A stretch of 64,000 nt of DNA from assembly GCF_018130145.1 (NCBI RefSeq), contig NZ_JAFCMB010000001.1, forward strand, positions 372,001 through 436,000, read 5' to 3'. The stretch is from Bradyrhizobium sp. AUGA SZCCT0176 (GTDB taxonomy: Bacteria > Pseudomonadota > Alphaproteobacteria > Rhizobiales > Xanthobacteraceae). The position numbers and the translations under genes were made by a program. The notes under the pieces are model-generated. The model made no database searches and had not been told where the DNA came from. It saw only the letters and a list, made by a program, of their open reading frames with translations. Positions 10,352 through 14,658 of this stretch are shown here, one piece after another (positions within the stretch are counted from its first letter, which is position 1; each line of letters starts with the position of its first letter).

Positions 10352-10810
10352 TTAACGCCCGGTCGAGCCGAAACCGCCGGCGCCGCGGTCGGTGGTCGAT
10401 AGCGTCTCGACCTGAACCAGTTGCGCCTGCGTGACCGGCGCGATCACCATCTGCGCGATGCGTTCGCCGCGCCGGATCGGGAATGGCGCCTCGCCATGGT
10501 TGATCAGGATCACGTTGATCTCGCCGCGATAATCCGCGTCCACCGTGCCGGGCGTATTGAGGACGGTGACGCCGTGCTTTGCCGCCAGCCCCGAGCGCGG
10601 TCGCACCTGCGCCTCAAATCCCGGGGGCAATGCGATGGCAAGGCCGGTGGGCACCATCGCGTATTTGCCCGGCGGCAGGATCAAGGGCGTTTCCGCCGGC
10701 ACCGCCGCCAGCAGATCCAGCCCCGCCGCGTCCGCGCTCTGATAGGCCGGCAGCGCCAGGCCCTCGGCGTGCGGCAATTGCATGATGTCGACCTTGACCG
10801 TTGCGCTCAC
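10352..10810 (-). CDS. dut: dUTP diphosphatase
   Basis: 152 residues beginning with GTG at 10810. The start is fixed by a GGAGAAG site just upstream and by a GTGA overlap with the coaBC stop codon; the longer frame to 10885 lies inside coaBC. All five trimeric dUTPase motifs are present: [34 protein letters not shown] and the C-terminal [11 protein letters not shown] arm. The enzyme hydrolyses dUTP to dUMP, keeping uracil out of DNA and supplying thymidylate synthesis. Adjacency of coaBC (dfp) and dut is old and also found in E. coli. Confidence 0.97.
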
Positions 10811-12270
10811 GAATTCTTCTCCAGTGATTTTGCGATCCGCGCCACCAGTTCGGCCGCGACCTGTTCTTTCGTCATGACCGGCCAAGAGTCCACTTCAATA
10901 TTGTCCACTGCAATGTTATCGACGCCGGCTTCTTTGCCGTCCCGCGTCAGCAGATGCACGGTGTTGCGGTCGCCGCCCATCACGCCGGTTGAAGGTGAAA
11001 CATCGTTGGCGACGATCCAGTCGCAGCCCTTGCGCGCGATCTTGGCCTTTGCATTTTCGATCAGATGTTCGGTCTCGGCGGCGAAGCCGATCACCAGCGG
11101 CGGGCGCTTATCCCCAAGTTTTGAAATCGTCGCCAGGATGTCGGGGTTTTCGAGCAGTTGCAGCGGCGGCATGCCGGCCGATGTCTTCTTCAATTTCTGC
11201 TCGCCCTCATTGGCGACGCGCCAGTCGGCGACGGCGGCGGCGAAGATCGCGATATCCGCCGGCAACGCCGCCTCGACCCGGTGCAGCATGTCGCGCGCCG
11301 ATTCGACCCGGATCACCGTCACGCCTGCGGGATCGCGCAAGTCGACCGGGCCGGACACCAGCGTCACGTCGGCGCCCGCGGCCTGCGCCGCGGCGGCGAT
11401 CGCAAAACCCTGCTTGCCCGACGAGCGGTTGGCGATATAGCGCACCGGATCTATCGGCTCATGGGTCGGGCCCGCGGTGATCAGCACGCGTTTTCCCAAG
11501 AGCGGACGCGGACGCGGCGGACGCAGGATGTCGACTGCGGCAGCGGCAATTTCCACGGCCTCAGACATCCGTCCGACGCCGGCCTCGTTGGTCTCGGCCA
11601 TCTCGCCGGCATTGGGGCCGATCATGATGACCCCGTCGCGGCGAAGCTGCAGCACGTTACGGCGGGTGGCGGGGTTGTTCCACATCAAGGGGTTCATCGC
11701 CGGTGCCAGCAGGATCGGCTTGTTGGCAGCCAGAAGGATAGCGCTTGCGAGATCGTCGGCGTGGCCATGCGCCATCTTCGCCATCAGGTCGGCCGTCGCC
11801 GGTGCGACCACGATCAGATCGCATTCACGGGCCAGACGGATGTGACCGGCGTCGAATTCGCTGCCGGGGTCGAACAGGTCCGTATAGACGCGCTCATGCG
11901 ACAGCGCGCTCGCGGACAGCGGCGTGACGAATTGCTGCGCCGCCTTGGTCAGCACGCAGCGGACCTCGATGCGCCGCTCCTTCAGCCGCCGGATCAGTTC
12001 GAGCGATTTGAAGGCGGCGATGCCGCCGCCGATGATCAGCGTGACGCTGGCCTGATTGGCCGCATCGGCGATCGCCGGCGCGCGGGCGGAGGCTTGCTCA
12101 GGCGGCGTCGTGCCGGCAGACGGGGAGGCAGGAAATTCGGGGCGGTCCTGGATGAGGTCGCCCAGGATGACTCGGACTTCTTCTTCCACCGAACGGCCGT
12201 TGCCGGCGGATCGCAGCCGCAAATAGGCCTTTACGGCGTCGTCGAGCTTTCGGATGGTGAGGCTGGCCAT
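10807..12270 (-). CDS. coaBC: CoaBC with an N-terminal ribbon-helix-helix domain
   Basis: 487 residues. Residues 1-40 ([20 protein letters not shown] onward to VEEEVRVIL) look like a FitA/Arc-type ribbon-helix-helix DNA-binding domain, then a Pro/Ala linker. Residues about 75-250 are the FMN-binding CoaC decarboxylase (GGGIAAFK, H143 in [14 protein letters not shown] at 190-197). From about 257 comes CoaB, the phosphopantothenate-cysteine ligase ([27 protein letters not shown]). Together they convert phosphopantothenate to phosphopantetheine for CoA. A GGAG site 9 bp before the ATG supports translation of the RHH part. The CoaC flap ([18 protein letters not shown], 218-235) lacks the catalytic Cys of E. 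coli Dfp. It overlaps dut as GTGA. Confidence 0.93.
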
Positions 12271-12297
12271 GGTCGGCTCCAGGCAGACATGATGTCA

Positions 12298-12322
12298 ATG
12301 CTAGCATACAATGCATGCATTG
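12298..12322. promoter_or_regulatory. Adjacent palindromes in the ubiB-coaBC gap, candidate operator
   Basis: A perfect 14-bp palindrome caatgcatgcattg (12309-12322) lies 2 bp from a perfect 10-bp palindrome atgctagcat (12298-12307). Both are built from ATGC/GCAT half-sites, the arrangement cooperative ribbon-helix-helix dimers favour. They sit in the 55-bp gap between the ubiB stop and the coaBC ATG. On the minus strand a possible -35 (TTGCAA) and -10 (TAGCAT) spaced by 16 bp overlap them, so a bound protein could block the promoter. Autoregulation by CoaBC's own RHH domain is inference. Confidence 0.5.
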
Positions 12323-12325
12323 CAA

Positions 12326-13900
12326 TCACATTTGCCGGACGGCCACCAGAATCCCGATAAATGTCACGGCGATGATCCAGAGCGCCACGGTGCGCCAGCG
12401 GCTCTTGCGCCCCTCGGCCCTGCCCAGCGCCGCAATCGTCTCCGGCGACAGTGTGACGCCCTCCCGGGTCATCTTCTCCAGCTGCTCCAGCACCGCCACC
12501 GAGCGCGTGGCAACTGCCGGCAGGCCTGCCAGCACGCGGCCAAGATCGCCCGCGCCGGACACCGCGCCCTGGATACGTCCGATCGGGCCGAGATTGCGCT
12601 CGATCCATTCGCGCACCACGGGATCGGCGACCTTCCAGATATCAAGCTTGGGATCGAAACCGCGCGCCACGCCCTCGACCACCACCATGGTCTTTTGCAG
12701 CAGGATCAGTTCGGGGCGGGTCTGCATGTCGAACAGCCCGGTGACCTCGAGCAGCAAGGTCAACAGCTTCGCCATCGAGATGTCTTCGGCGATGCGGTTG
12801 TGGATCGGCTCGCCGATGGCGCGGATCGCCTGCGCGAAATTCTCGACCGAGTGATGGCCGGGCACATAGCCGGCCTCGAAATGCACCTCGGCGACGCGGC
12901 GGTAGTCGCGGGTAATGAAACCCAGAAGAATTTCGGCGAGGAAGCGCCGCTCCTTCAGGCCAAGCCGGCCCATGATGCCGAAATCGACGGCGACCAGGCG
13001 GCCGGCCTCATCGAGGAACAGATTGCCGGGATGCATGTCGGCATGAAAGAAGCCATCGCGCAGCGCGTGGCGCAGGAAACTCTGGATCACCTTGCGCCCG
13101 AGATCGGGCAGGTCGATCTGCGATTGTGCGAGGCGCGCGTGGTCGTTGAGCGCGATGCCGTCGATCCACTCCATCGTCAGCACGTTGTGGGTGGTGCGGT
13201 CCCAATCCACCGCCGGCACGCGGAAATCCGGATCGTCGCGCGTGTTCTCCGCCATCTCGGACATCGCGGCCGCTTCCAGCCGCAAGTCCATCTCCATCGC
13301 GACCGAGCGCGACATCGTGTTGATGACCTCGATCAGCCGCAGCCGGCGCGCTTCAGCCGAATGCGCTTCCGCATTATTCGCGACGAAAAAGAAATCGGCG
13401 AGGTCGCGGCGGAAACGTGCGGCGACGTTCGGTCGGAGCACCTTGACGGCGACGGCCTTGCGCACGCCATCGCGCTCGGTCTCGCCGCGATGAACCTGCG
13501 CGATCGAAGCTGCGGCAACCGACGGCCCGAAGCTCGCAAACGCCTGTGCTACAGGGCGTTCCAGCGATGTGGCAATGACGGCCTCGGCCTCGCTTTGCGA
13601 AAACGGCGGCAGCCGATCCTGCAAGGCTTCCAGATCCCGCGCCATCGCAACGCCGACCACGTCGGGCCGCGTTGCCAGAAATTGTCCGAGCTTGAGATAG
13701 GCGGGGCCGAGCCGGGTCAGCGCCCGCGACAGCCGCGGGCCGGATTTGGCGCCGGGCCGCTCGATGATCCGCGCCAGCTTGAGCGCGAGTTGCCCGGGCG
13801 GCGGCACCAGGCTCGGATCGACAACGCCGAACACGCCCTCGCGTGCGAACACAAAGCCGGCGCGGACAAGCCGCGCGATGTGGGTCGCCGCAGAAATCAC
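12326..13900 (-). CDS. ubiB: UbiB-family ubiquinone biosynthesis kinase-like protein
   Basis: 524 residues from a GTG at 13900 that overlaps the ubiE stop as GTGA; a longer frame to 13951 would run into ubiE. It is an atypical ADCK/UbiB kinase-like protein: KxGQ motif [17 protein letters not shown], Ala-rich nucleotide loop [28 protein letters not shown] and the DFG-equivalent VDFGIMG. Two hydrophobic helices at the C-terminus, ending [16 protein letters not shown], anchor it to the inner membrane. UbiB is an ATPase needed for coenzyme Q synthesis, probably helping extract hydrophobic intermediates. The pairing with ubiE is the usual alphaproteobacterial order. Confidence 0.95.
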
Positions 13901-14658
13901 AAACGCCAGCCCGAATGCAGCGCCACGATACCGCCGGAGAGGCTTTCCCATTTCACCCGCGAGAAGCCGGCGGCGCTGATCATCTCGGCAAAGGCGTTGG
14001 GCCTCGGAAATTTCCGGATCGATTCAACGAGGTATTGGTAGGAGTCGGCGTCGCCGGTCACGGCTCGGCCGAGCGGCGGGATCACCTTGAACGAGAAAAA
14101 GTCATAGAGCCGGTCGAGCCCGGGCACATCGACGGCGGAGAATTCCAGGCACAGGAATCTGCTGCCGGGTCTCAGCACGCGGTAGGCTTCCTTCAGCGCG
14201 GCATCGATCCGCGGCACGTTGCGGATGCCGAACGCGATCGTATAGGCGTCAAACGCGCGATCCGGAAATTCCAGCGCCTCGGCGTTGCCCTCGACGAACG
14301 AAACCTGCTGGTCGAGATGCCGCGCAATCGCGCGGTTGCGGCCGACGTCGAGCATGTCGGTATTGATGTCGCAGACCGTGGCGCGGAAGCCGGTGCCTGC
14401 CGCCTTGGCGGCGCGAAACGCGATATCGCCGGTGCCGCCGGCAACATCCAGCAGTGCGAACGGCGCATCGCCCTTCGGCGGATTGAGCTTATTGATCATG
14501 ATGTCTTTCCAGACCCGGTGCAGGCCCGCCGACATCAGATCGTTCATCAAATCATAGCGCGACGCCACGCTGTGAAACACGTCGTTCACCAGCGTCTGCT
14601 TGTCCCCAAGGGGGACGTCCCTGAAGCCAAAATGCGTCGTTTGGTCCGGCCGATCCAT
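13897..14658 (-). CDS. ubiE: UbiE, demethoxyubiquinol/demethylmenaquinol C-methyltransferase
   Basis: 253 residues from the ATG at 14658, preceded by GGAGATAAG. SAM-binding motif I is [30 protein letters not shown] and [15 protein letters not shown] are typical of UbiE/COQ5. It performs the C-methylation step in ubiquinone synthesis. It is first of the ubiE-ubiB-coaBC-dut series, and mutM diverges from it across a 79-bp gap that must hold both promoters. Confidence 0.97.

Follow-up and report, generated by a model that had tools for sequence, protein, structure and literature searches.

In the window, by which we mean the whole 64,000-nucleotide stretch of Bradyrhizobium sp. AUGA SZCCT0176 DNA that was analysed, the gene for the coenzyme A biosynthesis enzyme CoaBC lies on the minus strand, in the order ubiB, a gap of 55 nt, coaBC and dut. 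A putative dut start at 10810 would give a 4-base overlap with the end of coaBC. The genes and features discussed here are the following.

12326-13951, minus strand: ubiB, upstream of coaBC and on the same strand (PF03109, ABC1, E = 2.5e-76)
12290-12328, minus strand: operator-like array of four TGNNNNCA modules (letters checked, comparative conservation)
12321-12328, minus strand: module 1, TGATTGCA, which includes the ubiB stop codon TGA (letters checked)
12312-12319, minus strand: module 2, TGCATGCA, core of a 14-bp palindrome (letters checked)
12299-12306, minus strand: module 3, TGCTAGCA, core of a 10-bp palindrome (letters checked)
12290-12297, minus strand: module 4, TGACATCA (letters checked)
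10807-12270, minus strand: coaBC, bifunctional enzyme with an N-terminal FitA-like ribbon-helix-helix (RHH) domain
12151-12270, minus strand: RHH segment, CoaBC residues 1-40 (PF22513 match at residues 2-37)
12052-12150, minus strand: CoaBC linker, about residues 41-73, variable and probably disordered (pLDDT and drop in identity)
10807-12051, minus strand: CoaC flavoprotein and CoaB (DFP) domains (TIGR00521, PF02441, PF04127)
10352-10810, minus strand: dut, downstream of coaBC and on the same strand (PF00692, dUTPase, E = 1.6e-33)

The CoaBC of the window is a normal bifunctional enzyme according to the equivalog model TIGR00521 (bifunctional CoaBC), which it matches at 386.7 bits, above the cut-off of 219.7. 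As an earlier note on this DNA had proposed, the protein opens with a FitA-like RHH domain: PF22513 (FitA-like_RHH) matches residues 2-37 at 52.7 bits (E = 4e-14, Pfam cut-off 27), and a TGGAG stretch precedes the ATG at 12270, in line with the ribosome site claimed for this start. When the first 69 residues were compared with the PDB using phmmer, the only matches at E ≤ 5 were two gonococcal FitA sequences (2h1o/2bsq, E about 0.01). AlphaFold placed helices at residues 11-24 and 28-41 in the 60-residue and full-length models alike, while the linker was poorly predicted, with pLDDT below 50 at residues 44-69. The monomer model of the RHH shows no strand, since the RHH strand pairs only in the dimer. 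With this model as the query, the best Foldseek match was 2bsq_E, FitAB on DNA (TM 0.61, rmsd 1.5 Å, weak E of 0.4), followed by Arc and CopG, and the weak E-values are those expected for just 60 residues. The closest solved relative of the CoaBC RHH is FitA by sequence and also by fold, the E-value of the latter being weak. Like the enzyme-repressors of the PutA kind, CoaBC is an enzyme that carries a domain of the DNA-binding type (PF22513 together with TIGR00521).

The RHH of CoaBC is conserved to about the same degree as the enzyme, in contrast to the drifting linker. In 150 sampled pairs of the genus, the RHH and the catalytic part had mean identities of 0.885 and 0.901, and the linker one of 0.41; over 200 wider pairs, the corresponding values were 0.651, 0.684 and 0.222. 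R7 was present in all 112 distinct fused RHH sequences (those joined to CoaBC), T5 in 98% and S3 in 95% of them. In FitA, R7 contacts DNA.

Read on the minus strand from 12328 to 12290, the array in the ubiB-coaBC gap is TGATTGCA-a-TGCATGCA-ttgta-TGCTAGCA-t-TGACATCA. Its modules have start-to-start distances of 9, 13 and 9 bp, and modules 3 and 4 form the pair motif TGMWWKCA-N-TGMWWKCA with one mismatch. The ubiB stop codon (12326-12328) makes up the first three bases of module 1, an arrangement likewise printed for most loci of the genus. The earlier note had centred on two palindromes, CAATGCATGCATTG (12309-12322) and ATGCTAGCAT (12298-12307), and had placed them over a possible promoter. 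Its coordinates and letters for the palindromes and for CoaBC are correct and both palindromes are present, but they are not the conserved unit, as only the module cores persist. Indeed, the long palindromes had to be rejected in that role: the 14-mer CAATGCATGCATTG, which is unique in this genome, was seen again only in L004 among 28 further genus loci whose gap could be read (30 in all, less the window's own and the misparsed L015). The promoter part of the claim found no support in an E. coli-type sigma-70-like scan of 12100-12500, whose sole match lies on the plus strand with none on the coding strand; the scan is uninformative.

Similar modules precede coaBC in other loci where the gene carries the RHH. 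When every 8-mer within 150 nt upstream that agrees with TGNNNNCA at 7 or all 8 positions was counted as a module, 59 of the 101 fused loci had four modules and 22 had three. Among 272 neighbouring module pairs no more than 25 bp apart in these loci, 170 were spaced by 9 bp and 69 by 13-14 bp. The commonest 8-mers were TGATTGCA, TGCAATCA, TGCTAGCA, TGATATCA and TGATAGCA; the half-sites of gonococcal FitAB are TGCTATCA/TGATAGCA.

The strict pair motif occurs at a single place in the 7,792,420 bases of the genome, the coaBC gap, while the reversed-pattern control gave none, so that its occurrence there is more than chance. We saw no wider regulon in this genome: with one mismatch allowed, the motif and the reversed control each gave 10 places, and two of the 10 of the motif fall in the coaBC array. 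PF22513, too, is matched only once in this genome (G000), in CoaBC. A PF22513 match was present in all of 60 genus genomes, and in 49 of them the CoaBC domain was the only one, FitA-like RHH domains being scarce in the genus outside CoaBC. Ten genomes had two or three matches, and the one match of the remaining genome, G035, was free-standing, coaBC there being cut at a contig end. The strict pair was found in 131 of 146 genus genomes and was missing from 15; G023, G050 and G099 are without it, and their gaps show looser modules only. In 54 of the 58 genus genomes with places listed, the strict pair stands 23-98 nt ahead of the CoaBC match; the same 58 genomes hold another 21 places away from it. 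A second pair-motif site, TGCTTGCATTGATTGCA, was seen at about 967-983 of locus L185 (G009), in the gap before a gene reading like a lytic transglycosylase, and the same 17-mer is listed in G014, G061 and G133.

For comparison across loci, each was scored by its best upstream pair (maximum 16), and an array was called at 14 or more. We scored 141 loci of L002-L146 (L001, L082, L083, L085 and L086 were left out), namely 101 fused loci, of which 27 are short loci taken as fused from an open match starting at residue 1 or 2, 32 RHH-less loci, and eight with a separate antitoxin; the last include a frameshifted fusion (L057), hence seven are truly unfused. With a motif and a threshold of 14 that were fixed after many of the scored loci had been seen, an array was found within 150 nt at 99 of the 101 fused loci. 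The earlier note had stated that conservation of the palindrome at coaBC genes lacking the RHH would speak against its reading, and none of the 32 RHH-less loci had an array within 330 nt. For 99 of the 101 fused loci, no more than 2 of 100 dinucleotide shuffles reached as high a score, which was the case for none of the 32 RHH-less ones. In the two fused loci that missed (L095 and L116), the array lies farther upstream, beyond repeat-like sequence. Such sequence stands between array and coaBC in these two loci and between ubiB and array in L120, the array being kept in each.

A score of at least 14 was also reached at five of the seven truly unfused loci with a separate antitoxin and at the frameshifted L057, the other two unfused loci (L063 and L077) scoring only 12. 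In L057/L214, from an Afipia MAG, the RHH and the catalytic part are in different frames, through assembly error or a real split. One of the 32 RHH-less loci (L145/L172) has an array just past 330 nt, which adjoins a sub-threshold PIN match (15.6 bits vs a cut-off of 23.6). The arrays of two fused loci, L211 (Nitrobacter) and L215 (Rhodopseudomonas), score just 13.

A named set of 80 loci, several of which are from genomes also present among the G-handle genomes, comprised 52 fused loci, 26 RHH-less loci, the frameshifted Afipia MAG gene and L231, whose apparent lack of the RHH is due only to a contig start within that domain and which was dropped from the count. In this set the array was found at 49 of the 52 fused loci within 150 nt and at 50 of 52 within 400 nt, at none of the 26 RHH-less loci, and at the frameshifted gene. 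Scores of 15 or 16 are reached by every one of the 17 named fused loci that fall outside the Xantho-/Nitrobacteraceae group. Of 128 rows in the tree, 68 have RHH and array, 55 have neither (these still contain L231), four have the RHH without the array and one, L172/L145, has the array without the RHH. Independent contrasts on supported branches gave 4 pairs only, mostly concordant, with a median p of 0.125, and their backing for the link is suggestive only. Across the loci compared, array and RHH co-occur near-exclusively.

It could be argued that the RHH is an oligomerisation or stability element only, and that the array is the target of some other regulator, such as an RHH protein from a different family. 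RHH domains do dimerise, and many CoaBC in the order, among the matches listed, are without one, so catalysis does not need it. However, array presence tracks RHH presence across loci, the strand positions S3, T5 and R7 rank among the most conserved, and neither this genome nor the 49 genus genomes mentioned above hold any other FitA-like RHH (PF22513), which makes this explanation improbable.

Sites similar to those of the array are also found upstream of FitA-like genes that are not joined to CoaBC. At eight free-standing FitA-like genes away from coaBC, the upstream pair scored 14-15 in five, 13 in two and 11 in one, and four of the eight are followed by a PIN-like reading frame downstream. 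Because of these sites, we regard the array as a candidate FitA-type operator, and a candidate cognate operator before coaBC is supported by comparative sequence. Between ubiB and coaBC themselves, five loci (L075, L077, L131, L132 and L140) hold an antitoxin and a PIN gene that each exceed their Pfam cut-off, and the CoaBC of these loci has no RHH. L063 and L074 have an open antitoxin and a toxin of which only the two ends are left. Two FitA-like RHH genes (Pfam) stand in tandem before the PIN gene upstream of coaBC in L132 (205-1075, G450).

The fused L128 and the unfused L132, which share one genus code, are 76% identical over 310 columns covering the ubiB end, the operator and the 5' half of the RHH, and identical at 87% of 159 columns from the coaBC leader onward. 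Between these aligned blocks, L132 has about 770 nt (second antitoxin and toxin) vs about 100 nt in L128, so the linker of L128 ends in former leader DNA. The antitoxin tail motif P-[LIF]-G-G, chosen from the intact antitoxins of L063, L074, L075, L077 and L140 and absent from those of L131 and L132, was found in 0 of 131 fused N-terminal extensions. At the coaBC locus of the window there is no PIN toxin gene, the neighbours being ubiB and dut.

In the tree, there are two main fused groups, Xantho-/Nitrobacteraceae and Phyllobacteriaceae-like. With corrected labels (L231 unlabelled, L057/L214 taken as fused), 13 changes are required to explain the fused state, of which supported branches force at least 6, and these 13 may stand either for several captures or for fewer captures with losses and transfers. 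The unfused L154 groups with the fused L150 and L151 and, together with these changes, makes a reversal or a replacement possible. Of 289 genomes sampled from the class, 213 had a match; among the matches listed, only the window's own covers query residues 1-26, and the match starts at 27 and 35 belong to rows with internal stops. The assignment of order family f24 to Methylobacterium was rejected; its RHH rows group with named Mesorhizobium in the tree.

The decayed modules at this junction (L063, L074 and L145) and the weak arrays of the fused L211 and L215 could also be taken to mean that domain and operator are neutral relics from the decay of a module and have no present regulatory effect. 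This is likewise unlikely, since the RHH is conserved about like the enzyme and far above the linker, and the array persists across both large fused groups and despite later insertion of repeat-like sequence. That the locus still works as a toxin-antitoxin system, with the fused antitoxin neutralising a PIN toxin from another locus and with the operator serving that function, would recall the complete antitoxin/PIN pairs at the same junction in relatives, but we hold it to be very improbable given that the gene next to coaBC is dut, that CoaBC linkers are not conserved and that the P-[LIF]-G-G tail is missing from all the fused extensions, a motif itself not in the antitoxins of L131 and L132.

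The combination of a DNA-binding-type domain on CoaBC with matching sites before its own gene makes it very probable that the production of the enzyme is self-controlled. From what can be read in the DNA, namely the domain, the array, their co-occurrence and uniqueness and the intermediates in relatives, we infer DNA binding and repression by CoaBC, as well as any metabolite signal. We consider it highly likely that an antitoxin-derived RHH of FitAB/VapBC-type origin on CoaBC binds the array and represses coaBC(-dut). A FitAB/VapBC-type module would have settled between ubiB and coaBC, its own operator included; the PIN toxin would then have been lost by deletion, and the antitoxin's DNA-binding half would have become an in-frame part of CoaBC with loss of the toxin-binding tail. 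RHH dimers would form between the N-termini of CoaBC subunits and attach to the TGNNNNCA modules between ubiB and coaBC, and bound CoaBC would repress coaBC(-dut) transcription, expression falling when CoaBC is plentiful. Autorepression of coaBC-dut, as put forward in the earlier note, would fit the anatomy of the locus; the toxin-antitoxin origin was not part of that note.

The CoaBC locus has in common with FitAB (VapBC-type) of Neisseria gonorrhoeae (PDB 2H1O/2BSQ) the FitA-like RHH and TG..CA modules upstream of the gene. Unlike FitAB, it is without a toxin, its RHH forms part of a metabolic enzyme and no toxin-binding tail is left. Excerpts of PMC3920265 and PMC3384007 describe four FitAB heterodimers on a 36-bp stretch of their own regulatory region; according to the former, binding is promoted by the toxin, which stabilises the complex holding the antitoxin dimers on the DNA. 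By analogy, the CoaBC oligomer may stand in for the lost toxin as a scaffold, bringing several RHH dimers onto one operator. CoaBC of Mycobacterium smegmatis and M. tuberculosis, which has the same two enzyme domains, is described in excerpts of PMC7794376 as a dodecamer whose CoaB is inhibited by CoA thioesters; with twelve subunits, each particle could present as many as six RHH dimers. Unlike the CoaBC of the window, the mycobacterial protein has CoaC at its N-terminus (residues 1-179), with no RHH mentioned in those excerpts.

The precedent for an RHH-bearing enzyme that represses its own gene is PutA, an autogenous repressor according to excerpts of PMC5293562. With trifunctional PutA (RHH plus proline dehydrogenase/P5C dehydrogenase), CoaBC shares an N-terminal RHH on a flavoenzyme and, as proposed here, autogenous repression. 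Unlike PutA, CoaBC is biosynthetic and not catabolic, its RHH is FitA-like, and a toxin-antitoxin origin is visible in relatives. A search of full-text literature, with most subscription papers and bioRxiv preprints outside its scope, gave no description joining CoaBC or phosphopantothen- with ribbon-helix-helix and, within the same scope, nothing joining phosphopantothenoylcysteine decarboxylase, Bradyrhizobium and toxin-antitoxin; the terms pantothen and dfp are absent from the toxin-antitoxin survey PMC2701414. With this limited coverage, the absence of RHH-CoaBC from print is not proven, and as a variant of the PutA-like enzyme-repressor it is new as far as the literature searched, without this being proven.

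A bolder possibility, which we advance tentatively and with some doubt, is that CoaBC acts as a CoA-pathway sensor in which the multi-subunit enzyme does the bridging once done by the lost toxin and ligand occupancy alters the engagement of RHH and array, the antitoxin having been captured more than once at this junction. Active-site occupancy (CTP, phosphopantothenate, CoA thioesters, flavin state) would then set the number of engaged RHH dimers. The link from CoaBC autorepression to CoA supply, which the earlier note had drawn, is speculation. If the sensor reading is true, the cell would read its CoA status directly through CoaBC, and selfish modules would have been turned into metabolic regulators.

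The whole, decayed and fused stages in relatives would mark a traceable path from a toxin-antitoxin module to a regulator of an essential housekeeping enzyme, with a proposed transcriptional control point in CoA synthesis. RHH-CoaBC reaches well-studied genera, as it is found in Bradyrhizobium, Rhodopseudomonas, Nitrobacter, Afipia, Mesorhizobium and Phyllobacterium.
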